From contig JACQXX010000109.1 of assembly GCA_016208495.1 (NCBI GenBank), positions 62,001-126,000 on the forward strand: DNA of 64,000 nucleotides, in the 5' to 3' direction. Position numbers and translations under genes: made by a program. Numbering within the stretch: position 1 is the stretch's first letter; each line of letters starts with the position of its first letter. The stretch is from Acidobacteriota bacterium. GTDB lineage: Bacteria; Acidobacteriota; Blastocatellia; Chloracidobacteriales; Chloracidobacteriaceae. The notes under the pieces are model-generated. The model saw nothing but the letters and a program-made list of their open reading frames with translations, was not told where the DNA came from and ran no database searches. Shown in pieces: positions 6,145-43,012 of the stretch.

Positions 6145-8453
<2,309 letters not shown>

Positions 8454-8578: not shown

Positions 8579-10018
8579 TCATTCAACTCCGATGGAAAGC
8601 AAGGCGGCTTCCAGGTGTTTTTCGTCTGCCAGTGAGACGGTTCGCAGATCCAAAAAAACAAAATCATGTTCCACCCGACTAATCACTGGCGTCGAAGCTG
8701 ATCGGAGCCGGGCTTCCAGTTCAACGGCTGAAAGTGTGGTTGATTGCAGCCCAATCAATGTGGTTGGAAGCTTGACCTGTGGCGCTGAACCGCCGCCAAC
8801 CAGAGAAAATCCCGGCTGGAGCGTGATTGAAATCGGAAGTTTTGACGCCTTCACCTTTCGTTTGACACGTTGAACCAGCCGCCGGGCTCGGTGGGCTAAT
8901 TGTTCTGGCGTGGCAGTTAAGGCGACCAGCGCCGGTATTTCTTCGGCGGCTAAACCGTCGAGATACAATCGGAGCGTTGCTTCAAGAGCGGCATACACCA
9001 TTTTATCAACCCGAAGGGCTCGCATCAGCGGGTTGTTTTTGATTTGGCTGACCAGGTCACGCCGACCAGCAATAATTCCAGCCTGGGGTCCGCCCAGGAG
9101 TTTGTCTCCACTGAAAGCGACCAGATCAACACCAGCGGCAATCGAGTTTTTGACCAGCGGTTCATCAATCCCAAAAGGTGTCAGATCAATCAGGGCCCCA
9201 CTGCCAAGATCCTCAAAACACAGCAGGTTATGTTGTTTTGCCAGGGTCGTCAGTTCAGCGAGTTCAGGTTTCTGGCTAAATCCAATCAATCGAAAATTGG
9301 ACGGATGGACGCGTAAAATCATTCGCGTTTGGGGTGAAATCGCCTGTTCATAATCAGAAAGGCGGGTTTTATTGGTCGTTCCGACTTCAACCAACCGGGC
9401 ACGGCTTTTTTTCATCACGTCCGGAATGCGAAACCCGCCGCCAATCTCAATGAGTTCTCCACGCGAGATTAAAACTTCTCCGTCTTGACAAAACGTGTCT
9501 AATGTGAGTAATACAGACGCCGCACAGTTATTCACCACAACGGCTGATTCACAGGCCAGAATCTTTTGCAGCACCGCCTCGCAATGCAAATGGCGTTGCC
9601 CTCGCTTTCCACTTCCCAGGTCATATTCCAGGTTTGAGTATCCACGTGACACATTGATGACGGCTGTCAACGCATTGACGGCCAATGGCGCCCGTCCCAG
9701 GTTGGTATGCAGCACAACCCCGGTGGCATTGATCACTGACCGGAGTTGGGGCATTTGGGACTGTTCCCATTGTGCCAACAGTCGTCTATCAATCAGATCC
9801 AAAAGAGCTTCAGCCGTGCCAGGAAGCGTAATCTGGTGGGAGCGAACTTCTTGACGGATATCATCCAAAAGCTGGCGCACAATATCCCGAATTTGCTCGC
9901 GCCGCCCGGCATCAATGAGCTTCCGGAATGTTGAATTGGATTCTAATCGGGAAAGAATTCGCTCAACGGAAGGTATCTGGCTCAGAATTTGCTGGATTTC
10001 TGAAGGCATAGGTGACAT
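8579..10018 (-). CDS. selA: L-seryl-tRNA(Sec) selenium transferase SelA
   Basis: This 479-residue PLP enzyme converts seryl-tRNA(Sec) to selenocysteinyl-tRNA(Sec) using selenophosphate. The N-terminal tRNA-binding helices (IPSVERIL...) precede the large domain, with INATGVVLHTNLGRAPL at 96-112 and the cofactor-binding Lys306 in SGDKLLGGPQAG. Length is typical of the family. Two in-frame ATG starts (10018 and 10009) are possible and neither has a strong SD. No selB, selD or tRNA(Sec) gene and no UGA-interrupted selenoprotein was recognised in the window, so the rest of the pathway must lie elsewhere. The stop codon coincides with an F2 unit. Confidence 0.97.
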   Translation of the reverse strand: MSPMPSEIQQILSQIPSVERILSRLESNSTFRKLIDAGRREQIRDIVRQLLDDIRQEVRSHQITLPGTAEALLDLIDRRLLAQWEQSQMPQLRSVINATGVVLHTNLGRAPLAVNALTAVINVSRGYSNLEYDLGSGKRGQRHLHCEAVLQKILACESAVVVNNCAASVLLTLDTFCQDGEVLISRGELIEIGGGFRIPDVMKKSRARLVEVGTTNKTRLSDYEQAISPQTRMILRVHPSNFRLIGFSQKPELAELTTLAKQHNLLCFEDLGSGALIDLTPFGIDEPLVKNSIAAGVDLVAFSGDKLLGGPQAGIIAGRRDLVSQIKNNPLMRALRVDKMVYAALEATLRLYLDGLAAEEIPALVALTATPEQLAHRARRLVQRVKRKVKASKLPISITLQPGFSLVGGGSAPQVKLPTTLIGLQSTTLSAVELEARLRSASTPVISRVEHDFVFLDLRTVSLADEKHLEAALLSIGVE

Positions 10019-12182: not shown

Positions 12183-13415
12183 ATGTTTTCCGCTGCGCTT
12201 TGGGAATCTGTCCAACAAGCTTTTGTGAGCCTTTCCGCCAATAAACTCCGCACTATCCTCACCTTGATTGGAATTGTGGTTGGGGTGACGGCTGTCATTG
12301 CCGTGGTCACCGTGATCGAAGGACTCAATCAAAAAGTGGCCCAAACCTTTGCCAGCCAGGGCTCAAATGTTTTTTCGGTTCGAAAACTTCCGCAAATCAT
12401 TCTCAGCCGGGATGATTTGTTACGGTTCCAAAAACGCAAAGATATCACTGAAGATGATGCCCGATTTGTCACTGACCGCTGTCGCGAGTGTGATCAGGTC
12501 GGATGGGATTTCACCACCATTGGCACGGTCAAGTTTGAACACGAAAAATCAGAGAATGTCATCATTCGAGGCATTTCGGGAAACGTGCCAACCATTGAGT
12601 CACTCACCCTTGACGCAGGCCGCATTTTTACCGACCAGGAAGCCCAGGGCTCCCGCAATGTGTGCATTATTGGGTGGGACGTGGTTGACAATCTCTTCCC
12701 TTCAAAAGATCCGCTCGGCAAAGAAATAAAAATTGCTGGTCGGCCCTATACCGTCATCGGGATTTCAACCCGGTATGGATCACTCTTTGGGTTCTCGCGT
12801 GACAATTTCGTCATGATTCCCTTTTCGACCTTTTGCCGTGTGTATGGAACAGGCGGGTCAATTAATATCATTATTGCCGCGATCAGTACCGAGCGCATTG
12901 ACCAGGCCGAACAGGAAGTCCGCACGCTGATGCGCATTCGGCGGCAGAAATCGTTTCGGGACGAAGATGACGGGTTTGCCATTGAAAGCTCACAGGTTTT
13001 TCTCGATCTCTATGCCGATGCAACCCGCAATATCTACCTGGTTTCCTTTGTCGTTTCGGGAATCTCGCTCATTGTCGGCGGCATTGTGATTATGAACATT
13101 ATGCTGGTCTCAGTCACCGAACGCACTCGCGAAATTGGCATCCGCAAGGCCATGGGTGCCCGCCGGGTTGATGTCTTATGGCAATTTCTGACCGAAGCCG
13201 TGGTCATTTCGGCGATTGGAGGCTTAATCGGCATCTTTTGCGGTTTCGGATTGGCCTATCTGATTTCGATCTACACGGCCTTTCCAATTGCCGTCAAAGC
13301 CTGGTCAGCGATTCTTGGTGTTACGGTTTCGTCGCTGGTCGGTATTGTGTTTGGTGTCTACCCAGCCAACCGGGCCGCCCAACTCGACCCGATTGAAGCC
13401 CTCCGGGCCGAATAA
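12183..13415 (+). CDS. MacB/FtsX-family ABC transporter permease
   Basis: This 410-residue protein has the MacB-like layout. One N-terminal transmembrane helix (about 20-45, LRTILTLIGIVVGVTAVIAVVTV) is followed by a periplasmic MacB core domain (about 50-270). Three more helices make up an FtsX domain, including the signature VSVTERTREIGIRKAMGARR before helix 3 and a C-terminal YPANRAAQLDPIEALRAE. It would couple ATP hydrolysis in a separate ATPase to efflux or mechanotransmission in the envelope. No ATP-binding subunit or membrane-fusion protein is adjacent, so its partners are unknown. No clear SD precedes the ATG. The stop is followed within five bases by F1 repeats. Confidence 0.93.
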   Translation: MFSAALWESVQQAFVSLSANKLRTILTLIGIVVGVTAVIAVVTVIEGLNQKVAQTFASQGSNVFSVRKLPQIILSRDDLLRFQKRKDITEDDARFVTDRCRECDQVGWDFTTIGTVKFEHEKSENVIIRGISGNVPTIESLTLDAGRIFTDQEAQGSRNVCIIGWDVVDNLFPSKDPLGKEIKIAGRPYTVIGISTRYGSLFGFSRDNFVMIPFSTFCRVYGTGGSINIIIAAISTERIDQAEQEVRTLMRIRRQKSFRDEDDGFAIESSQVFLDLYADATRNIYLVSFVVSGISLIVGGIVIMNIMLVSVTERTREIGIRKAMGARRVDVLWQFLTEAVVISAIGGLIGIFCGFGLAYLISIYTAFPIAVKAWSAILGVTVSSLVGIVFGVYPANRAAQLDPIEALRAE

Positions 13416-14005: not shown

Positions 14006-16360
14006 ATGACGTCTCCCAAAAACACGCGGTACCTTCGGCTATTCGCTGTTTTGGCTGTCCTGTTGACGGCAGGCTCAGTTTTTCTGATTCGCCAGTGGTC
14101 TGAGACCTCAGCCCATACAGCGGTCTCACCCAATACACAGGAAGTACAGGATCAAATTTTTGTGCCGGATATGCAGACCGAAGCCCGGCTGTCACCCGGT
14201 CCAACCCAATCAAGTCCAATTATTATCAACAATAGCGATAGTTTTGTCTGGGTCGTCAACCCTGACAACAACTCCGTTTCGATTCTTGAAGTACGCGCCG
14301 ACGCCAACCGGAAAGTTCGCGAAGTGCCAGTCGGAAAAGAACCCCAAAGCCTGGCGTTTAACTCTGACAATTCCAAAGTCTATGTCGCCAATGCCCTGGA
14401 TGGCACCGTGTCGGTCATCAGCACGGCCACCTTCACGGTTGTGAAAACAATTCCCGTCGGGACCGAGCCCTGGGCGCTGGCATTTACCCCCAACGGCACC
14501 AAGCTCTATGTGGTGAATTCGTACTCCAAAAACGTGTCGGTGATTAACCCACAAACTGACACCGTGGTGAAAACGATTGAAATTCCGAATTCGCCATTGG
14601 GCGAGCGGGCCATTCCTCGTGCGATCACCATTAGCAACAATGGCGATTTTGATGACACCGATGAAAAAGTCTATGTGTGTAATTTCCTGAGTGAAGACCT
14701 GCCCAACCGGGTCATCGGGTCTGACAATTACAAACAGGGCCGAATCAACATTATTTCGGCTGGCACTGACCAGTTAATTGGATCAATCACCCTGGCCCCA
14801 CTGGCGGTAACCGGGTTTAAATCGGATGGCGCGGCCATTGCCAAGATTCCACCGAAAGGCGGCGGCGTGTTTGAAGTTGACACTGGGGCATTTCCAAATC
14901 AGCTCACGGCGTTCACGATCAAAAATGACAAAGCCTATGTTTCCAGCCAGGGTGCTTCACCCGAAGGCCCGGTTCGCTTTAACGTCATTTTGCAGCCGTT
15001 GATCAGCACGATTGATTTGGGGGCTGAACGTGAGATTGGTGAGCCACTCAATGCCAATCGAGGATTTCAGTTTGAACCTCCCAAAGAAGTCACCGTCAAT
15101 GGGCAACAAATTCAATTCCACCGCTTTAATACCATCCCAATGGCGCTGGTTTTCAAGCGAACGGAAAATGTCGGCTATCTGGTGCTTGGCGGCAGTGACT
15201 GCTTGCTGCGGGTCGAACTCGACAGCGCTGGTCGCCCAACCGTTTTGGCCCCAGCGGCGGCGGGAGATGCCGGCAATTTTGAACGGATTCTGGTCGGTAA
15301 AAACCCACGCGGCATGGTCATCAACAGCACCGACACCCGTGGCTATGTGTGGAATTACATTTCACGTGACGTGACAGCGATTGACCTGACCAAAGATGCC
15401 CGTCAGGTCAACAATGTGATCGGTTCGATTCAGGCGGCTGACCTGCCAGCAGCCGGTTCACGCGAAGCAACAGTTCTGCTTGGAAAAGAACTCTTCAACA
15501 CCACCATTGGCCCAATGCAACCTCGGGCCGCCAAAAATGGAGTGCTTGAAGGCGCCATGGCTGACTTTGGCTGGTGTGGATGTTATGCCTGTCACCCGGA
15601 AGGTCTGACTGATGGTGTGGTCTGGATGTTCCCCGATGGACCGCGCCGGTCAATTCCACTCAATCAGACGTTTAACCCGCGCGATCCGAGCGATCAGCGA
15701 ATCTTGAACTGGTCGGCGGTTCGTGACGAAGTTCAGGATTTTGAACTCAACACTCGTGGGGTGGCTGGCGGCCAGGGTCTGATTCTGCTCGCGAATGGAA
15801 ACCAGGATCCAGAAGTGTTTAATCTTCTGCCCCGAGCGAGCAGTGGCCGTGATCCACGTCAGGATTCAATCAATGAATATGTGAAAACCATCCGCAGCCC
15901 ACTCTCCTTTGTGCCCACCACCGACAAGGACGCGGCGAAAGGTCGGAAACTGTTCCAGAAAGCTGGCTGCATTGACTGCCACGCCGGTGGCAAATGGACG
16001 AGCAGCAAACTTGATTTCACCCCAGCGCCTCCGGCTGACCGGGTAGTTGACGGTGAAATCGCCAGCGTGCTGAGGAAAGTTGGTACGCTTGATGTCAATA
16101 ATCCGAACGAAGTGATTGGGACTGGTGCCAATATCAGCAAACCAGCCAAGGGAGCGACCGGCTTTAATCCGGCCAGCCTCCTGGGTGCATTTGCTCTTGG
16201 GCCATATCTGCACAATGGTGAAGCTCAGTCACTCAATGAAGTGCTCAATAATGCCACTCACATGGGACCAAAAGCCGCCAAGACGCTAGGCAATGCCAAG
16301 AAGCGGGCGCAGTTGCTTCGATTTCTCGAATCAATTGATGACCGAACAACTCCATTTTAG
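14006..16360 (+). CDS. YVTN/YncE-type beta-propeller protein with c-type haem sites
   Basis: This 784-residue exported protein has SD GAGGAGG five bases before ATG 14006. A signal/anchor helix lies at about 10-30. Residues about 70-480 form propeller repeats of the YVTN type (NNSVSILEV, KVYVANALDGTVSVI, KLYVVNSYSKNVSVINPQTDTV). The C-terminal third has two CXXCH haem-attachment sites, CYACH at 526-530 and CIDCH at 655-659, as in di-haem peroxidase-like or cytochrome c domains. It is probably a periplasmic electron-transfer or dehydrogenase-like protein; the substrate is unknown. No cytochrome-maturation genes are adjacent. An F3-type array starts just after the stop. Confidence 0.88.
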   Translation: MTSPKNTRYLRLFAVLAVLLTAGSVFLIRQWSETSAHTAVSPNTQEVQDQIFVPDMQTEARLSPGPTQSSPIIINNSDSFVWVVNPDNNSVSILEVRADANRKVREVPVGKEPQSLAFNSDNSKVYVANALDGTVSVISTATFTVVKTIPVGTEPWALAFTPNGTKLYVVNSYSKNVSVINPQTDTVVKTIEIPNSPLGERAIPRAITISNNGDFDDTDEKVYVCNFLSEDLPNRVIGSDNYKQGRINIISAGTDQLIGSITLAPLAVTGFKSDGAAIAKIPPKGGGVFEVDTGAFPNQLTAFTIKNDKAYVSSQGASPEGPVRFNVILQPLISTIDLGAEREIGEPLNANRGFQFEPPKEVTVNGQQIQFHRFNTIPMALVFKRTENVGYLVLGGSDCLLRVELDSAGRPTVLAPAAAGDAGNFERILVGKNPRGMVINSTDTRGYVWNYISRDVTAIDLTKDARQVNNVIGSIQAADLPAAGSREATVLLGKELFNTTIGPMQPRAAKNGVLEGAMADFGWCGCYACHPEGLTDGVVWMFPDGPRRSIPLNQTFNPRDPSDQRILNWSAVRDEVQDFELNTRGVAGGQGLILLANGNQDPEVFNLLPRASSGRDPRQDSINEYVKTIRSPLSFVPTTDKDAAKGRKLFQKAGCIDCHAGGKWTSSKLDFTPAPPADRVVDGEIASVLRKVGTLDVNNPNEVIGTGANISKPAKGATGFNPASLLGAFALGPYLHNGEAQSLNEVLNNATHMGPKAAKTLGNAKKRAQLLRFLESIDDRTTPF

Positions 16361-34727: not shown

Positions 34728-34755
34728 GTCAGTACCACCTGCGTGAGCGGGTGGG
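34728..34755 (+). repeat. REP-like 28-bp palindrome, single copy
   Basis: The sequence GTCAGTACCACC..GTGAGC..GGGTGGG can fold on itself (CCACC/GGGTGG). The same sequence forms the ends of the element at 36519-36681 and recurs, degenerate, at 58152-58179. Confidence 0.7.
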
Positions 34756-34896: not shown

Positions 34897-34975
34897 GAAA
34901 ACAGTCAAGTAATTCAATCAAAGAAGGTTAGTGAACTACTGACGACTGACGACTGGCTACTGACTGGCATTATTT
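34897..34975 (+). repeat. F4 repeat copy at the TonB-protein stop codon
   Basis: The block order is GAAAACAGTCAAGTAATTCA, TTAGTGAACTAC, then TGACGAC and TGGCTAC units, as in the other F4 copies. It runs to within a few bases of the minus-strand TAA stop at 34970-34972. Confidence 0.75.
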
Positions 34976-35326
34976 GATCACAAACCGAAATTCAACCAGC
35001 GTTGAAACAGTTTTGCCTTGTGGTTCATATCGCCACGAACGAACGGCATCAAGGGCAGCTTCCCGCAAGCGATAATCACCTTTTAACACCCACGCCTGGG
35101 CCACATCTCCATTTGGACCAACGATAACCCGGATTACCACAGGTCCCTGAACATGCTGGGCTTTCGCCACGACAGGATATTCGGGCAGATTTCGCTCAAT
35201 CACCGGCAATGAAGTCACTGATGGTCCAACCACAACCTGGGTTGAATTCTGTGCCTGTGCCGTGACGGTCACAGTCAAACAGAGGACACATGAAAGAAAA
35301 AACGACGTTACGATGGTGTGCAACAT
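34970..35326 (-). CDS. Small exported TonB C-terminal-domain protein
   Basis: This 118-residue protein has a signal peptide (about 1-26, MLHTIVTSFFLSCVLCL...TAQAQ). A TonB-like C-terminal domain covers residues 38-118 (PEYPVVAKAQHVQGPVVIRVIVGPNG..., ALDAVRSWRYEP). It lacks the proline-rich spacer of full TonB, so it may be a stand-alone periplasmic binding domain rather than an energy transducer. SD AAGGAG supports the start at 35326; an in-frame ATG at 35356 is possible. No exbB/exbD or receptor gene is adjacent. The region 35327-35560 upstream shows no gene. Confidence 0.78.
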   Translation of the reverse strand: MLHTIVTSFFLSCVLCLTVTVTAQAQNSTQVVVGPSVTSLPVIERNLPEYPVVAKAQHVQGPVVIRVIVGPNGDVAQAWVLKGDYRLREAALDAVRSWRYEPQGKTVSTLVEFRFVIK

Positions 35327-35571
35327 ATGAAAAACGAACTCCTTTTCTTTAGTCATCCAACCAGAGCCAGCATCGGTTTGTGCCCGACGTGACATCCCAT
35401 TGTGATTGGATGAAAATACAGTCTCAGTGTTTAAGAAAGCGGTTTCGTTCCGATTGGATCGGGTGAAATCAACTTTCCTTCGACGCCGAGGAGTATGCAA
35501 GGAGTAAGTTTCGATCACATCGCCAACCTGTAACATCTCTTTGACGGAAGTGTAACGATTGGGGTCAGGGG

Positions 35572-35741
35572 CATAAGGCGCCAGGATAAGGAAATGTGGG
35601 CCTGTTTGAGACAAGGAGACAAGGAGACAAGGAGATCCTCCTCCCGACGTTGGGAGCGGGAGAATATTTTTTCTCCTTGTCCCCTTGTCCCCTTGTCCCC
35701 TTGTCCAGATCGGGCTTTGTTTCCTTATCCTGGCGCTTATG
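35572..35741 (-). mobile_element. 170-bp inverted-repeat element (copy B, opposite orientation)
   Basis: It has the same 22-bp ends as copy A, with one extra G in the left end. The interior is close to the reverse complement of copy A (17712-17880), with GGGAGAATATTTTTTCTCC at the centre and CCTTGTCC/GACAAGGAG microrepeats. Small differences in microrepeat number distinguish the copies. Confidence 0.85.
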
Positions 35742-35881
35742 GGGGTCAGGGTCAGGGTCTTCGAAGAAGTTGTTTTTATGTCCTTTTCGTCCTTTTTGTC
35801 CTTTTTGTCTTTTTCTCGAAAACCCGGAACCCGGAACCCGGAACCCGGAACCCGGAACCCGGAACCCGGAACCCGAAGACT
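35742..35881. repeat. Compound F1 array after the zinc-ribbon gene (minus strand)
   Basis: GGGTCAGGG units, TCTTCGAAG, then ATGTCC and CTTTTTGTC units, TCTCGAAAA, and seven ACCCGGA units form the array. It has the same layout as 716-900 and 17881-18003. The stop of the minus-strand gene lies eight bases beyond. Confidence 0.8.
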
Positions 35882-36499
35882 TCACTCTTCCCGCTTCGGG
35901 ACCTCAACCTGATACCGGCTGAATTCATACAAGATTGGTTTGAGAAACGGGTATTTCTTTGAATGCAGGATGGTCACAAGCTGGCCTTGCCGGGCGTTGT
36001 ACCATTCGGGTTCGGTGACTTCACAGACCCCGCTGATTGGTTCACCAACTGGATCATCTGAAATAAAATGGATTTCATACTTGTTATGCAAGCGCTGGCG
36101 AAACTCAGTGATATGTCCGACGTAGGTATCACCATTGGCTGTCAGCCAGCGATGAGTCAATGTTCGCCACAGTTCCTGGATAAACCAAAAACCAAAAAGA
36201 CCAACCAAAATCACCCAGAACGTGCTTTTGGACGACAACACCAGGACAAGCCCGGCCAGCAAAGCCAGTCCCTGAAACAGATGATTGCCAATTTGTCCCA
36301 GACTATTTCGCACTCGAACTGGTCGTGGCGTTTCAAGTCGAAGTTCTTCCAGAGCCACTGGTTGAGGATTGCGTTCCAATGCGATTGGCTGACACCGCTC
36401 GCAGAGGTTCCGCACCGGGTCAAATTTGTCGGCTTGATGGCAAATTTCACAACGGGTTGGAAGAAATTCTTTTTTGACCAGGAGTTTTTCTGAGCCCAT
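35882..36499 (-). CDS. Zinc-ribbon membrane protein, DUF3592-like tail
   Basis: In this 205-residue protein, an N-terminal CEICH...CERC zinc ribbon (about 17-36) is followed by a linker. Two adjacent membrane helices (about 80-115, LFQGLALLAGLVLVL and FWVILVGLFGFWFIQEL) and a C-terminal beta domain similar to DUF3592 (DTYVGHITEFRQRL...YEIHFIS) follow. The C-terminal domain recurs in the 440-residue protein at 47803-49125. ATG 36499 starts just before a REP-like element. Function unknown. Confidence 0.75.
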   Translation of the reverse strand: MGSEKLLVKKEFLPTRCEICHQADKFDPVRNLCERCQPIALERNPQPVALEELRLETPRPVRVRNSLGQIGNHLFQGLALLAGLVLVLSSKSTFWVILVGLFGFWFIQELWRTLTHRWLTANGDTYVGHITEFRQRLHNKYEIHFISDDPVGEPISGVCEVTEPEWYNARQGQLVTILHSKKYPFLKPILYEFSRYQVEVPKREE

Positions 36500-36518
36500 A
36501 AACACCACCACGAATGAA

Positions 36519-36681
36519 GTCAGTACCACCGGCGTCAGCGGGTGGGGATTGAAGGCAAATCATACCAGCTTGAAGCCAGAAGTCCATCAAATCCATTTTT
36601 TTCAGTTATTTGACTATCTAGTCATTCTCTTAGGAGAATTTCAAAGGATCACACCCACCCGCTGACGCAGGTGGTATTGAC
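36519..36681. mobile_element. 163-bp element bounded by REP-like 28-bp inverted repeats
   Basis: The left end at 36519-36546 and the right end at 36654-36681 are inverted copies (two mismatches in 28) of the REP-like sequence at 34728. The interior (36547-36653) is AT-rich with no ORF. The arrangement resembles a BIME or RAYT-mobilised doublet. No transposase is in the window. Confidence 0.75.
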
Positions 36682-36853
36682 CTCATCCTTACAAAAGGTA
36701 CTTGTCACAAGCAAACATTCTCAGGCAGAATGGGGTTGTCATTCTCTCCCCCTTACAATTCAGGATTTCAGGTATCAGCGCTTGAACGCACTTTTTTGCC
36801 TCACGCAATTGAATTCGTTTGCTTACCGCGTTGCCGCCCCGGCGACTCAGCCG

Positions 36854-36952
36854 ATGTGTGCCCCGTCCGCGGTTGGTCGTGAGGCTGTATCCATTTCTAT
36901 TATTCGAATTTCAATTATTGCCATTCGCACTCAAGGCGTGAGGGCTACCTGA
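36854..36952 (+). CDS. Isoleucine-rich leader peptide of an attenuator
   Basis: This 32-codon ORF has ATG 36854 and TGA 36950-36952. Residues 14-24 read ISIIRISIIAI, seven Ile in eleven, all ATT codons. It ends 30 bp before an intrinsic terminator and 89 bp before the threonine-dehydratase start. This is the classical layout of biosynthetic attenuators such as that of ilvGMEDA. Shortage of charged tRNA(Ile) would stall the ribosome in this run. No good SD precedes the ATG, and the frame is open further upstream, so the exact start is uncertain. It was identified by composition and position only. Confidence 0.75.
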   Translation: MCAPSAVGREAVSISIIRISIIAIRTQGVRAT

Positions 36953-37019
36953 CACCCAACTGCACAAGTTGAAAGTGACACCAAAGCCACCACGCCAGAC
37001 CCGGCGGGTGGCTTTTTTG
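36935..37019 (+). promoter_or_regulatory. Attenuator with alternative antiterminator pairing
   Basis: The terminator arm AGCCACCACGCC (36985-36996) pairs with GGCGGGTGGCT (37003-37013), giving 11 bp with one bulge, followed by TTTTTT. The upstream segment GGCGTGAGGGCT (36935-36946) lies right after the Ile codons within the leader ORF. It can instead pair with the first terminator arm (10 of 12 positions). A ribosome reaching the leader stop would mask this segment and allow termination. A ribosome stalled at Ile codons would leave it free to block termination. The gap 36682-36853 shows no other gene. Confidence 0.75.
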
Positions 37020-37041
37020 ATTTTTGAGGAGAAACACACCA

Positions 37042-38070
37042 ATGTCCGTCGCCACCGTTCCATCAACCGAATCTGAGGTACCCAGTCACACACACACCGC
37101 CTGGCCGATCTCCTTTCAGGATGTTGTCACCGCATCGCGTCAACTCCGGCAATACCTGCCAGTGACGCCGCTCCGGAATTATCAGGCTCTGGATCAGGCT
37201 GTGGGCCATAACATTCAAGTCCATGTGAAGCACGAAAACCACTTGCCGACCAATTCTTTCAAGGTCCGCAATGGGTTAAGTGTGCTGGCTTCGCTGACAC
37301 CCGAACAACGCAAGCACGGTGTGGTCGCCGCGACGCGTGGAAATCATGGTCAGGGCGTCGCATGGGCTGGCGCACTCCTGGGTATCCCAGTTATTATCTG
37401 CGTCCCCCTCTCAAACAATCCTGAAAAAAACGCAGCCATGCGCGGCTTTGGAGCAACCGTGATCGAAGATGGTCACGATTATGACGAAGCCATTCGTGTC
37501 GCTCAGGAGCTGGTTCATTCGCGTGGAATGACCCTGGTCCACGCCACCAACAACCGACGAGTGCTGGCTGGTGCCGCAACCATGTCGCTTGAAATGGTGG
37601 TGGATCAGGCGGCTGAACTCGATGCCGTGGTCATGGCCATTGGCGGCGGTTCAATGGCCGTCGGAGCGTTGACGGTGCTCCGCAAACTGCGTCCGGAAAT
37701 CGAAGTCTACGGTGTCCAGGCAGAAGGCGCATCGGCCATGCACGAATCGTGGCACGCCGGGCAACCAGTGGTGAAACATACCGCCCAGACGATTGCCGAT
37801 GGACTGGCTACCCGTGGCGTCTATGAAATGACGTTTAGTACCCTCCGCGAAGGACTCACCGATTTCATCACGGTCAGCGATGAACTCATCGCCGAAGCCG
37901 TCCGCATGCTGCTCAAAACAACCCACAATCTCGCTGAAGGCGCGGGCGCCGCCGGGCTGGCTGGATTGCTGTCGCTCCGTGAACGGCTGGCCGGCAAACG
38001 GGTCGGGATTGTTCTCTCGGGATCAAATATTGATGAAACCACCCTTCGCTGGGTGATGAAAGCCGCTTGA
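37042..38070 (+). CDS. ilvA: Threonine dehydratase (threonine ammonia-lyase), short form
   Basis: This 342-residue PLP enzyme deaminates threonine to 2-oxobutanoate. SD GAGGAG lies ten bases before ATG 37042. Visible features are TNSFKVRN with the PLP Lys, [13 protein letters not shown], the glycine loop [12 protein letters not shown] and a C-terminal SGSNID. There is no C-terminal ACT-like regulatory domain, so the length matches catabolic TdcB-type forms. However, the Ile leader directly upstream argues for a biosynthetic role in isoleucine synthesis. Without that domain, feedback control by Ile may rest on transcription attenuation. No other ilv gene is adjacent. The symbol is therefore provisional. 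Confidence 0.88.
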
Positions 38071-38071
38071 A

Positions 38072-38172
38072 GCCGGGGCTGAGAAAACCAGGGCTTGGGG
38101 CTGAGGGCTGAAGATATTGGGCTGAAGACTTCGAAAACCCGGAACCCGGAACCCGGAACCCCGACCCCTGAA
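38072..38172. repeat. F3 plus F1 array between ilvA and gltB
   Basis: GGGGCTGAGAAAACCAGGGCT, split into GGGCTGAGGGCTGAAG units, leads to the junction TTCGAAAA (38130-38137) and three ACCCGGA units. It ends just ahead of the gltB SD AAAGGA. Confidence 0.75.
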
Positions 38173-38182
38173 AGGAATCACT

Positions 38183-41100
38183 ATGTGGAATCAAGAAAAA
38201 TCAAGTTGTGGCGTTGGTTTTGTGGCCAGTCTCCATCAGGTCAGCAACCACGAAAATCTACAACAGGCACTCCATGCACTCCGGTGTGTTGAACATCGCG
38301 GTGCCTGCGGCGCTGATCTTGAAACCAGTGACGGAGCCGGGGTAATGACCGATATTCCCTTTGAATTGCTGGGGTTTGAGAAACATTCCGTTGGCGTGGC
38401 GCAATTGTTTTTGCCGCAGGACGAACCGTATCGAAAAGAAATTCTAGCGATTTTTGAAGACACCTTTGCTTTTCTCGATGTTGAATTGATTGGCTATCGT
38501 GAGGTACCGATCAACGCCGAAGTGCTTGGACCGCAGGCACGACAGACGATGCCGGTGCTCGTTCAGGCATTTTTGCGCCGTCCAGTTCATTGCACCACGG
38601 TGGATTCATTCAACAAGCTGCTCTATATCGGAAAACAACACGCCCGCACCAGGGTAATTCGCCGGTTTTCGAATTACGAGGTGTTTTTCTCGTCAATTTC
38701 TGCGGAAACAATTGTGTATAAAGCACTTGTGCGATCAGAAAAGCTTGATCAATTTTATCTGGATTTGCAATCTCCCCAGTATCGCACCCGGTTTGCACTC
38801 TTTCATCGCCGATTCAGCACCAACACCAGCACGGCCTGGGATAAGGCCCAACCGTTTCGCCTGATTGCGCACAATGGCGAAATCAATACGATTGCCGGCA
38901 ACCGGTCGTGGGCCTACTCGCGGGAAAAAACACTCGGCTTGCAGGCCAACGAACTGATTACCCATCACGGCATCAGCGACAGCGGCAGCCTCAATGAAAT
39001 GGTCGAAGCCCTCCGATATCGCAGCCACCTGGCCAATATCAATGACATTTTGGCGATCATGATGCCGCCGGCGGATCGGCAAAATGACTACTACACGTTT
39101 TGGGCGCGCACGATGGAACCGTGGGACGGGCCGGCGATTATTCTATTTTCAGACGGCAACCTGGTCGGCGCCAGACTTGACCGCAATGGATTCCGGCCTG
39201 GCCGCTGGATGCTCACCGAAGGCCATTTCTATGTGTGTTCTGAAGCTGGCGCCTTTGCGCTCAACGAAAGCGATATCCGGTTTAAAGGAGCACTTCATGC
39301 TGGAAATGCGGTGACGGTCAATTTACGAACTGGACTGGTGAGCTTTGAAGACCCAAGCACCATTGCCGCTTATCAAGGTGTGCGGTTTGATCCACGCCTG
39401 GTGTCATTACCGGCCACAACGCAGTTGCAAGCAGCCGGCATGGCCGACAAAACGGTGTTTGGGTACACCGAGGAAGATTCAAACCGCATCCTGCTGCCGA
39501 TGATGGCCACCGGCAAGGAGCCAATTGGTTCAATGGGTGACACCGCCCGGCTGGCAGTGCTTTCCGATGAACCACGTTCGTTTTTTGATTTCTTCTATCA
39601 GGATTTCGCCCAGGTGACCAATCCGCCAGTTGATTACCTGCGCGAAACGATAGCCACCGATTTGACGGTGTTTCTGGGGTCGAAACCCAATATTTTCATT
39701 CCAACCGAATTGATCCCACCGCGCCCGGCGATCCGACTTGAGCATCCAGTTCTGAGCCTCCAGCAAATTTCAGAATTAAAAGCCCTGACCACCGATCATT
39801 CGCAGGAAGTCGGCATTCGGGCCGTGGTGCTTGATACCACATTTGATGCAACCGAGGGCGTGGCCGGATTTGATTTGGCGATTGACGAACTCACCCGTAA
39901 AGGATTGACCGCCGTTGAACATGGCACGGCGGTGGTGATCCTGAGTGATCGCCAGGCTGGGCATCATCGCCTGCCGATCCCTTCCCTGCTGGCCCTACGG
40001 GCGCTGGTCAATGCGCTCAACGAATCTGGATTGAAGCTCAAAGCGTCACTGGTGGTTGAGTCGGGTGAGATTCGCAGTTCGCACCACGTCGCGGCGCTGA
40101 TCGGATTTGGTGCCACCGCCGTGTGTCCCTATCTGGCGCTCGAAATTGCCCGGTTTGAACCCAATGCCAAACTTGAAGGCATCGCCCCAGAACAGCGCGA
40201 AGCCAATCTGATTGCGGCGCTCCGGTCGGGACTCCTGAAAATCATGGCCAAGATGGGGATTTCCGTGCTGCGGAGTTATCAAAATGCCCGGCTGTTTACC
40301 ATTCTTGGACTTGGCCGGAATCTGGTGAATTTCTATTTTCCAGGGATGGAAAGCGTTGTCGGCGGGTTTGAACTGGAGCACATCGTGGATCTGGTTCGAC
40401 TCAACGCCACCCGGTCAGAAGCGGCCATGGCGGTCGGAAGCGGGAAACTGCTCCACACGTATCAGTTCCGCGAACACACTCAGGGCACGGCAGGTGAAAA
40501 ACACGCCATGACCACGACTCGGGCGCGAATGATCCACAAACTGGTTCGTGAAACCGGGCATTCGCTGAGTTCGCCGGAACTCTATGATCACTATTTGAAA
40601 CAGGGAGAAGACAGCGCCCCGGTGACCTTTCGTCACCTGTTCCGCTTAAAAACCGAATTGCCCGCGCTTGGGCTCAATCAGGTCGAACCGATGTCAGACA
40701 TTTTATGGCGGTTTGGAACTGGCGGAATGTCGTTTGGCGCCATCAGCGCCGAATCACAGCGCGATTTGATCACCGCCATGCGCGAGGTCCGCGCCCGCAG
40801 CAACAGCGGCGAAGGCGGCGAAAATCCCTTTTATTTCGCTGAAGGCATCACCGCCACCACCAAACAGGTGGCCTCCGGGCGATTTGGCGTGACGGCTGAA
40901 TATTTGATTTCAGCCCAGGAAATCCAGATTAAAATTGCCCAGGGGGCCAAACCCGGCGAAGGTGGCCAGTTGATGGCAGTGAAAGTCACCCCTGAAATTG
41001 CCAGGGCACGCCATTCGCCAGTCAATATTGATCTGATTTCTCCGCCGCCGATGCACGATATTTACAGCATCGAAGACCTGAAAGAGCTTATTTACGAACT

Positions 41101-42556
41101 CAAACAGCTTCATCCGTCAGCCAAAGTCAGCGTCAAACTGGTTTCCGGGGTCAATATTGACACGATTGCCGTCGGTGTGGCGAAAGCCGGGGCTGACATC
41201 ATCCACATCTCTGGCGGAGACGGCGGCACCGGTGCCGCCGGGCTCGGTTCGATGAAACACGCCGGGCTGCCCTGGGAACTGGGTCTGGTCGCCGTGCATC
41301 GGGCACTGGTCGCCAATCATCTGCGCCAATCCATTACACTTCGAGTAGACGGCGGTTTGCACACGGGCAAGGATCTCGTACTGGCAGCGGCGCTTGGCGC
41401 GGAGGAATTTGACTTTGGCAAGCTCCTGCTCGTCGCCGAAGGGTGCATTATGGCGCGGATTTGCGAAACCAATCGCTGTCCGGCAGGCATTGCCACCCAC
41501 GATCCGAAATTCAAAGCCAAATACCAGGGAACACCAACTCACGTGGTGCGGATGCTCGAATACCTTGCCGAAGACGTCCGCCGTCACCTGGCACGGCTGG
41601 GCTTTACCACGCTCACTGATCTGGTGGGCCGGATTGATCTGGTCGAGACCGATCCACGCTTTACCCAACTCGTCGCCGAACGCAATCTGGATCTGAGCTT
41701 TTTCTTTCAAACCGTGCTGTCTGGTTCGAAAGCCGCGTTTGACCTGACCACCAGTCTGGCCTATGTACCAGTCAGCCCGTTGAATGAATTTCTGGTCAAC
41801 CGGGCCAAACCAGCGCTTGATCATCAGACGCCGTTTCGAATCGAATGCGGCATCCGCAGTACCGACCGGGCCGCACTCGCGACCTTGTCCGGGGTAATCG
41901 CCGAAACCATGTATCATCAACGCGGTCACTCAGAACCAGGAACTCAACCGCCAGCGACCAACCGGATTCAGGTGGATTTTGTCGGGAGTGCGGGTCAAGG
42001 ATTTGGGGTATTTCTGGTGGATGGCATCGAGACCCGGCTCTTTGGCGAGGCCAACGACTCGGTCTGCAAAGGGATGTCTGGCGGAAAAGTGGTGATTCGC
42101 CCCCATCCGCATTCAAAATTAGAACCCGAGAAAAACACAATCATCGGCAACTGTGCGCTCTATGGCGCCACAGGGGGCAAACTGTTTATCAATGGGCTGG
42201 CCGGTGACCGGTTTGCGGTTCGCAATAGCGGAGCACTCGCCGTGGTCGAAGGCGTCGGCCTTCACGCCTGTGAATATATGACCAACGGTATTGTGGTAAT
42301 CCTCGGCAAAATCGGGTTGAACCTTGGTGCCGGAATGACTGGCGGGAAAATCTACCTTCACAGTCAACCGGATCTTTCCAGAATCAATCAAAACTACGTT
42401 CAACTTCAACAGTTAACGAATCAAGATGCTGATGAACTGGTGCACCTCCTCGGCGAATATGCAGCGGAAACTGACAGCCTCCGGGCTCAAGCCATGGTGC
42501 GATCATTTGCGACTCTCCGTGCGGAGTTTTGGAAGATCATTCCTGGAAAAGCATAG
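38183..42556 (+). CDS. gltB: Glutamate synthase large subunit
   Basis: This 1457-residue enzyme transfers the amide of glutamine to 2-oxoglutarate, giving two glutamates. The class II amidotransferase nucleophile is Cys9 in SSCGVGF; short N-terminal processing to expose it is expected. A central domain, an FMN-binding synthase domain (GGEGGENPFYF, SGGDGGTGAAGLG) and a 3Fe-4S cluster motif CX5CX4C in GCIMARICETNRCPAG follow. A C-terminal GXGXG beta-helix domain (GMSGGKVVIRPH, GMTGGKIYLH) completes it. No gltD-like small subunit is adjacent, so the electron donor (NADPH via GltD elsewhere, or ferredoxin) is open. SD AAAGGA precedes the ATG. Confidence 0.97.
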   Translation: MWNQEKSSCGVGFVASLHQVSNHENLQQALHALRCVEHRGACGADLETSDGAGVMTDIPFELLGFEKHSVGVAQLFLPQDEPYRKEILAIFEDTFAFLDVELIGYREVPINAEVLGPQARQTMPVLVQAFLRRPVHCTTVDSFNKLLYIGKQHARTRVIRRFSNYEVFFSSISAETIVYKALVRSEKLDQFYLDLQSPQYRTRFALFHRRFSTNTSTAWDKAQPFRLIAHNGEINTIAGNRSWAYSREKTLGLQANELITHHGISDSGSLNEMVEALRYRSHLANINDILAIMMPPADRQNDYYTFWARTMEPWDGPAIILFSDGNLVGARLDRNGFRPGRWMLTEGHFYVCSEAGAFALNESDIRFKGALHAGNAVTVNLRTGLVSFEDPSTIAAYQGVRFDPRLVSLPATTQLQAAGMADKTVFGYTEEDSNRILLPMMATGKEPIGSMGDTARLAVLSDEPRSFFDFFYQDFAQVTNPPVDYLRETIATDLTVFLGSKPNIFIPTELIPPRPAIRLEHPVLSLQQISELKALTTDHSQEVGIRAVVLDTTFDATEGVAGFDLAIDELTRKGLTAVEHGTAVVILSDRQAGHHRLPIPSLLALRALVNALNESGLKLKASLVVESGEIRSSHHVAALIGFGATAVCPYLALEIARFEPNAKLEGIAPEQREANLIAALRSGLLKIMAKMGISVLRSYQNARLFTILGLGRNLVNFYFPGMESVVGGFELEHIVDLVRLNATRSEAAMAVGSGKLLHTYQFREHTQGTAGEKHAMTTTRARMIHKLVRETGHSLSSPELYDHYLKQGEDSAPVTFRHLFRLKTELPALGLNQVEPMSDILWRFGTGGMSFGAISAESQRDLITAMREVRARSNSGEGGENPFYFAEGITATTKQVASGRFGVTAEYLISAQEIQIKIAQGAKPGEGGQLMAVKVTPEIARARHSPVNIDLISPPPMHDIYSIEDLKELIYELKQLHPSAKVSVKLVSGVNIDTIAVGVAKAGADIIHISGGDGGTGAAGLGSMKHAGLPWELGLVAVHRALVANHLRQSITLRVDGGLHTGKDLVLAAALGAEEFDFGKLLLVAEGCIMARICETNRCPAGIATHDPKFKAKYQGTPTHVVRMLEYLAEDVRRHLARLGFTTLTDLVGRIDLVETDPRFTQLVAERNLDLSFFFQTVLSGSKAAFDLTTSLAYVPVSPLNEFLVNRAKPALDHQTPFRIECGIRSTDRAALATLSGVIAETMYHQRGHSEPGTQPPATNRIQVDFVGSAGQGFGVFLVDGIETRLFGEANDSVCKGMSGGKVVIRPHPHSKLEPEKNTIIGNCALYGATGGKLFINGLAGDRFAVRNSGALAVVEGVGLHACEYMTNGIVVILGKIGLNLGAGMTGGKIYLHSQPDLSRINQNYVQLQQLTNQDADELVHLLGEYAAETDSLRAQAMVRSFATLRAEFWKIIPGKA

Positions 42557-42643
42557 GGTTCGGGGTTCAGGGTTCAGGGCTCAGGGTTCAGGGTTCAGGG
42601 TTCAGGGTTCAGGGTTCAGGGTTCAGGGTTCAGGGTTTTCGAA
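42554..42643. repeat. F1 array starting at the gltB stop codon
   Basis: The stop TAG opens the array (TAGGGTTCGGGGTTCAGGG). About eleven heptamers follow, ending at TTTTCGAA (42636-42643). Confidence 0.88.
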
Positions 42644-42647
42644 GAAA

Positions 42648-42823
42648 TGTCACCCTGTCACCCTGTCACCTTGTCACCTTGTCACCTTGTCACCTTGTCA
42701 CCCTGTCACCCTGTCACCTTGTCACCCTGTCACCCTGTCACCTTGTCACCTTGTCACCTTGTCACCCTGTCACCTTGTCACCCTGTCACCTTGTCACCCT
42801 GTCACCTTGTCACCTTGTCACCT
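42648..42823. repeat. F2 array, about 22 copies of TGTCACCY
   Basis: About 22 perfect 8-bp units TGTCACCC or TGTCACCT are mixed in irregular order, the only variable base being the last. It is the longest F2 array in the window. A T/C-rich stretch without gene signals (42824-43012) leads to the hybrid kinase. Confidence 0.9.
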
Positions 42824-43012
42824 TGTCCCTTTGTCATTCCCTCCCACTTTATCCCCTGTTTGGCTTATATTCTCAGTGTTTGGCTTAAAAATTGCTCCTC
42901 TCAAACCCAAATTGGCTTGAAAGCAGGAATGCCAGCTTTTTCTGCCTCATCACTGAAGTCAATTTTATGATTTTTCTGCCTAACCTGGCCCATTTTCCTC
43001 AATACCCGTACT

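Follow-up and report, generated by a model that had tools for sequence, protein, structure and literature searches.

The ilvA gene and its leader region

The window, meaning the whole stretch of 64,000 nucleotides that was analysed, encodes a short threonine dehydratase preceded by a small isoleucine-rich reading frame and an intrinsic terminator. The features of this locus and of the related elements are collected in Table 1. The initial annotation had described an SD-preceded ATG and an enzyme lacking an ACT-like feedback domain, and both descriptions are borne out: GAGGAG lies ahead of ATG 37042, the protein contains PF00291 (PALP) alone, and the PF00585 regulatory domain was detected neither in it nor anywhere in the genome of the window (G000) or that of its relative Blastocatellia bacterium SSF51 (G001, contig JAIBAN010000064.1). 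The best NCBIfam model for the protein is the threonine dehydratase PRK06110, with a score of 292.9 bits that is slightly under the cut-off of 317. Two more dehydratase-like PALP genes are present in the G000 genome, one closest to threo-3-hydroxyaspartate ammonia-lyase (L002) and the other to serine/threonine dehydratase (L003). The window's enzyme is assigned to isoleucine synthesis because its orthologue in G001 (64% identical protein) stands at the end of a leu-ilv cluster, directly after ilvD, in the order leuA-leuC-leuD-leuB-ilvB...ilvE-cupin-ilvC-ilvD-element-ilvA. In G000, the leuC-to-ilvD cluster is found on another contig (L047). At the threshold used, each genome yielded only one HMGL-type enzyme (LeuA/CimA family).

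Several further observations were made around these genes. The gene after ilvA (38183-42556) encodes a 1457-aa protein which, from our own reading of its sequence, is presumably the large subunit of glutamate synthase. In L047, an Acido-Lenti-1 RNA of Rfam lies between leuC and leuD (15018-15064, minus strand, 41.5 bits against a cut-off of 37), and between ilvC and ilvD there are three copies of a ~35-bp sequence, AAAATGTTCGAGGTCGAACAATTCTTGTAATCTAT (about 6990-7930, minus strand). Several intergenic stretches of the window (35600-35960, 38120-38170 and 42500-42900) are made up of simple repeats, CCCGGAA and GTCACCCT among them, and similar ones are found between the ilv genes of both genomes. 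A tRNA called by ARAGORN at 35823-35918 looks spurious.

Table 1. Features of the ilvA locus in the window and attenuators found before ilvB.
Feature	Position	Strand	Remarks
Possible sigma-70-like promoter of the leader transcript, TTGTCA-18-CAGAAT	36702..36731	+	weak, consensus match 9/12; function not implied
Leader peptide ORF	36854..36952	+	start ATG uncertain; stop TGA 36950-36952; frame end kept in G001 (SIIIRHSNQGVGD, then stop)
Control region, 7 ATT (Ile) codons in 11	36893..36925	+	unique in window; 0/5000 shuffles reach 6
Antiterminator strand (segment 2), GGCGTGAGGGCT	36935..36946	+	encodes last leader codons; duplex with terminator arm
Intrinsic terminator (segments 3:4 and U-run)	36983..37018	+	-23.5 kcal/mol, z -5.1
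Shine-Dalgarno sequence of ilvA, GAGGAG	37026..37031	+	anti-SD duplex -9.3 kcal/mol
ilvA, short threonine dehydratase, 342 aa	37042..38070	+	PALP domain only
ilvB attenuator, Ile/Val/Leu leader	L047 (G000:C11) about 12700-13143	minus	leader and terminator
ilvB attenuator, Ile/Val/Leu leader	L046 (G001:C24) 9135-9800		leader and terminator
Further ilvB attenuators	L052, L062, L073, L075, L080, L094, L097, L098, L101, L105, L107, L108, L109, L110		

Translated from ATG 36854, the leader ORF reads MCAPSAVGREAVSISIIRISIIAIRTQGVRAT. The initial annotation had proposed a 32-codon ORF with seven ATT codons in eleven. The frame and the isoleucine run are firm; the length is uncertain, since the anti-SD duplex at this ATG is weak (-2.1 compared with -9.3 kcal/mol for ilvA). 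The ATT codons start at 36893, 36899, 36902, 36908, 36914, 36917 and 36923. Among the 90,032 open stretches of 11 codons in the window, both strands included, there is no second case of at least seven isoleucines, and the maximum reached in 5000 dinucleotide shuffles of 36800-36983 was five, which rules out chance as the origin of the run. Since ATT is also the commonest isoleucine codon of the window (629 ATT, 393 ATC and 29 ATA in its 26 long ORFs), the run does not consist of rare codons. Just 5' of the leader there is a perfect 15-bp inverted repeat, GCGTCAGCGGGTGGG, at 36532-36546 and 36654-36668 (107 bp apart), with a third copy bearing one mismatch at 34741-34755.

The terminator consists of a stem-loop, AAAGCCACCACGCC-AGACCC-GGCGGGTGGCTTT, at 36983-37015 and a U-run at 37013-37018, and the ilvA ATG begins 23 nt past its end. 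None of 200 shuffles folded as well. A segment complementary to its first arm had also been claimed, and this too is confirmed: segment 2 pairs with the 5' arm, AGCCACCACGCC, at -21.1 kcal/mol (z -4.8), a value matched by none of 500 shuffles and by 23 of 3000 random 36-mers from the window. The antiterminator and the terminator are both strong, and they are mutually exclusive. With distances counted from where the leader stop codon ends, the last isoleucine codon starts at -30, segment 2 extends from -18 to -7 and the terminator arm begins at +30. Given a footprint that reaches about 12-13 nt beyond the A-site codon on the leading side and 15-20 nt on the trailing side, a ribosome stalled at the isoleucine run would leave segment 2 free and one at the stop codon would cover it. 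A 1:2 (protector/pause) hairpin forms in both G000 and G001 but differs between the two.

Conservation in SSF51 and attenuators before ilvB

The initial annotation had suggested that the upstream regions of relatives be compared. G001 is the only other member of the lineage that was found, which gives only two independent examples of the ilvA element, and the isoleucine run (SIIIR..QGV.., then stop), the antiterminator and the terminator are all kept. The element lies between ilvD and ilvA. Its leader ends in SILNSQFSIIIRHSNQGVGD and that of the window in ISIIRISIIAIRTQGVRAT, and both stop codons are followed by a terminator with the stem GCCACC..GGTGGC. The likeness of the two elements amounts to a z of ~11, or ~6 if the terminator is left out. 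The last isoleucine codon is found at -33 and the terminator arm at +24. The antiterminator duplex of G001 is only modestly better than those of shuffled sequences (-15.9 kcal/mol, z -1.4, equalled by 44 of 500 shuffles). The leader would need a TTG start, which has the better SD, and its control region contains isoleucine codons plus leucine codons that come from a repeat. Heptamer repeats are present in this part of the genome (L007), with (TTGAGAA)n at 1133-1190 after ilvD and (ATTCTCA)n at 1293-1340 inside the ilvA leader, whose peptide is partly made from it. These are mutually inverted copies that could form a very strong hairpin, and the 220-nt stretch with both repeats folds at -93 kcal/mol.

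Elements of the same kind precede ilvB. The leader peptides are MNRNQNTVQTTSLKTRFGFLSATLGVVNTIVSTLATASVVILVIVGIISVIMTAAVAS in G000 and MDANRFNRTASLLKREYDARLSGFGLHLGFGLISSVVAVRILSVILSIIGIISIVREVGTVAT in G001, each ending at a stop codon and each with a terminator. In these two leaders, the final isoleucine codons lie at -27 and -33 and the terminator arms at +27 and +23. The antiterminator:arm duplex in G000 reaches -31.8 kcal/mol, a value matched by none of 500 shuffles. A branched-chain leader and a terminator before ilvB, with the arm 23-34 nt past the stop, were found in at least 14 more genomes of Blastocatellia. The G000 ilvA element resembles the ilvB attenuators in its codon run, in a stop near segment 2 that is followed by the arm, and in its spacing. 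It differs in two respects: segment 2 lies wholly before the stop, whereas it overlaps the stop in most of the 14 ilvB elements outside the family, and its control region specifies isoleucine only, in contrast to the mixed Ile/Val/Leu codons of the ilvB leaders. Codon content thus tracks the pathway.

The ilvB elements were chosen by a leader and a terminator in the ilvB upstream regions of the class, and pairing was not a criterion. The 18 elements in the permutation test comprised the ilvA and ilvB elements of G000 and G001 plus the 14 others. The energies of each antiterminator with its own arm sum to -351.7 kcal/mol, which none of 100,000 partner permutations equalled (mean -227.0, minimum -294.9 kcal/mol). 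Across the class, changes in segment 2 are therefore matched by changes in the terminator arm. For the G000 ilvA antiterminator, the best partner among the 18 arms is its own.

Outside the family, an isoleucine leader with terminator was found in none of 27 homologues from the class (two of them, L021 and L025, have too little upstream DNA). The nearest relatives of the enzyme belong to Gemmatimonadota, Acidobacteria gp7/gp22, Elusimicrobia and others (51-64% identity), and a leader with terminator was not found in these either, one contig (L120) beginning 14 bases before the match. Two short frames with four isoleucines in 12 codons and no terminator (L123, L124) are probably due to chance. 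The initial annotation had also suggested that attenuation may replace allostery. The comparison does not support this idea, since short IlvA without an attenuator is common in the class: 25 of the 28 other class genomes scanned also lack PF00585, a search that would miss some possible kinds of allosteric control. The family also includes genomes of ~3.7 Mb in two contigs (G003-G005), which are taken here to be Chloracidobacterium, and the branched-chain genes are absent from the members scanned. This absence fits the branched-chain auxotrophy of Chloracidobacterium, which cannot make these amino acids (PMC4376005).

Probable attenuation and alternative explanations

The leader region combines an ORF rich in codons for the pathway product, a terminator before the gene, a mutually exclusive antiterminator and a spacing that fits. 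From the codon run, the two exclusive structures and their spacing, together with their preservation in G001 and the related attenuators before ilvB, the element is very likely a ribosome-mediated transcription attenuator that senses charged Ile-tRNA and controls ilvA. When Ile-tRNA is scarce, a ribosome translating the leader would stall on the ATT run with its leading edge before segment 2, which would then be free to pair with the 5' arm of the terminator, and transcription would continue into ilvA. With Ile-tRNA in good supply, the ribosome would reach the stop codon and cover segment 2, the terminator would form and transcription would stop near 37018. IlvA catalyses the first step committed to isoleucine, and ilvA would very probably answer mainly to this amino acid, being on only when isoleucine is short. 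The stalling model put forward in the initial annotation for this threonine dehydratase is thus well supported by the conservation in G001, by the ilvB attenuators and by the position of the G001 gene beside ilvD.

The terminator could instead simply mark the 3' end of a gene further upstream, with the isoleucine-rich frame incidental. The arrangement in G001 lends itself to this, as ilvD lies ahead of the element in the same orientation and could be the gene that the terminator ends. In the window, however, the leader is the only plus-strand gene for ~2.1 kb upstream and the neighbours (34970-35614 and 35882-36529) are encoded on the minus strand; for this reason the terminator is assigned to the 5' leader of ilvA. 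G001 also keeps the antiterminator and the isoleucine run, a run with no second example in the window, and a simple 3' terminator is extremely improbable. The element could also be the relic of an attenuator that used to work, or a copy of the ilvB attenuator that has no function, which would account for the weak start signals of the leader and for a G001 leader that is partly a simple heptamer repeat. This would be at odds with a frame, terminator, antiterminator and spacing that are intact in both ilvA copies despite a protein identity of 64%, and this explanation is considered highly improbable.

A leader that senses a signal other than charged Ile-tRNA, be it a T-box, another riboswitch or the general translation rate, is also very improbable. 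Riboswitches (ppGpp class) are present in some ilv leaders elsewhere, as cited in PMC10272879, and leader codon changes were without effect in Streptomyces coelicolor ilvB (PMC1262725). Against this, no Rfam family reached its gathering score in a scan of the window that included the amino acid leaders (Phe, Thr, Leu, His, Trp), and the highest-scoring match below threshold at this very position was itself a peptide leader (Phe_leader, 25.2 bits versus 55, E 0.055). No covariance-model match to a T-box was obtained in the window or at the element, and the codons follow the pathway, with isoleucine for ilvA and Ile/Val/Leu for ilvB. Attenuation by a ribosome stalled at isoleucine codons is therefore the preferred reading.

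Known systems, origin and biological meaning

The ilvGMEDA and ilvBN operons of enterobacteria are governed by leader-peptide attenuators, which share with the window's element a leader of product codons, an antiterminator opposed to an intrinsic terminator, and the control of branched-chain genes. Enterobacterial ilvA lies inside an operon under one Ile/Val/Leu leader, whereas the ilvA of the window has a leader of its own with a control region for isoleucine alone. The threonine operon leader thrL (Rfam RF00506) also joins a leader peptide with isoleucine codons to a terminator; unlike the window's element, it has mixed threonine and isoleucine codons and controls thrABC. Similarity to the thrL model was weak and sub-threshold, and was seen only for the ilvB element L062. 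The ilvB-II motif and the ilvBNC leader of Corynebacterium are alike in having a uORF of branched-chain codons with a terminator and antiterminator, and differ in gene, phylum and their multivalent codons (PMC10272879, PMC11857589). Leader-peptide attenuation of ilv genes is known in enterobacteria, Actinobacteria and Firmicutes (PMC10272879, PMC1262725, PMC5794164), and PMC10272879 cites uORF control in E. coli. In a 2010 survey, almost all of the attenuators predicted in Acidobacteria were without an assigned function (PMC2965389). The initial annotation knew of no description of such a leader for this type of organism; none was found for Acidobacteriota in the open-access literature, which is no proof of absence. 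The mechanism is already known, and its occurrence before ilvA in this phylum is new as far as that literature shows.

With respect to origin, it is possible, though doubtful, that an old ilvB attenuator of the class was copied before ilvA in one lineage and that its mixed codons then became isoleucine codons only, in part through heptamer repeats. In favour of this is the shared terminator stem, AAGCCACC..GGTGGCTTT, which the 8.4-Mb genome contains three times, including both ilv attenuators. The other two matches to the terminator pattern in the whole genomes (G000 C107 and G001 C199) do not precede any recognisable amino acid gene. Since the similarity drops to a z of ~2-3 without the terminator, an ilvB origin is only suggestive. 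If true, the branch enzyme IlvA would have come to respond solely to its own end product.

The general picture of attenuation is unchanged by these elements. A set of branched-chain attenuators now appears to be spread through the class Blastocatellia, and with isoleucine codons for ilvA and Ile/Val/Leu codons for ilvB, it provides one case of leader codon content following a pathway branch. Codon choice versus pathway position is therefore directly testable, and annotators could recognise such leaders.
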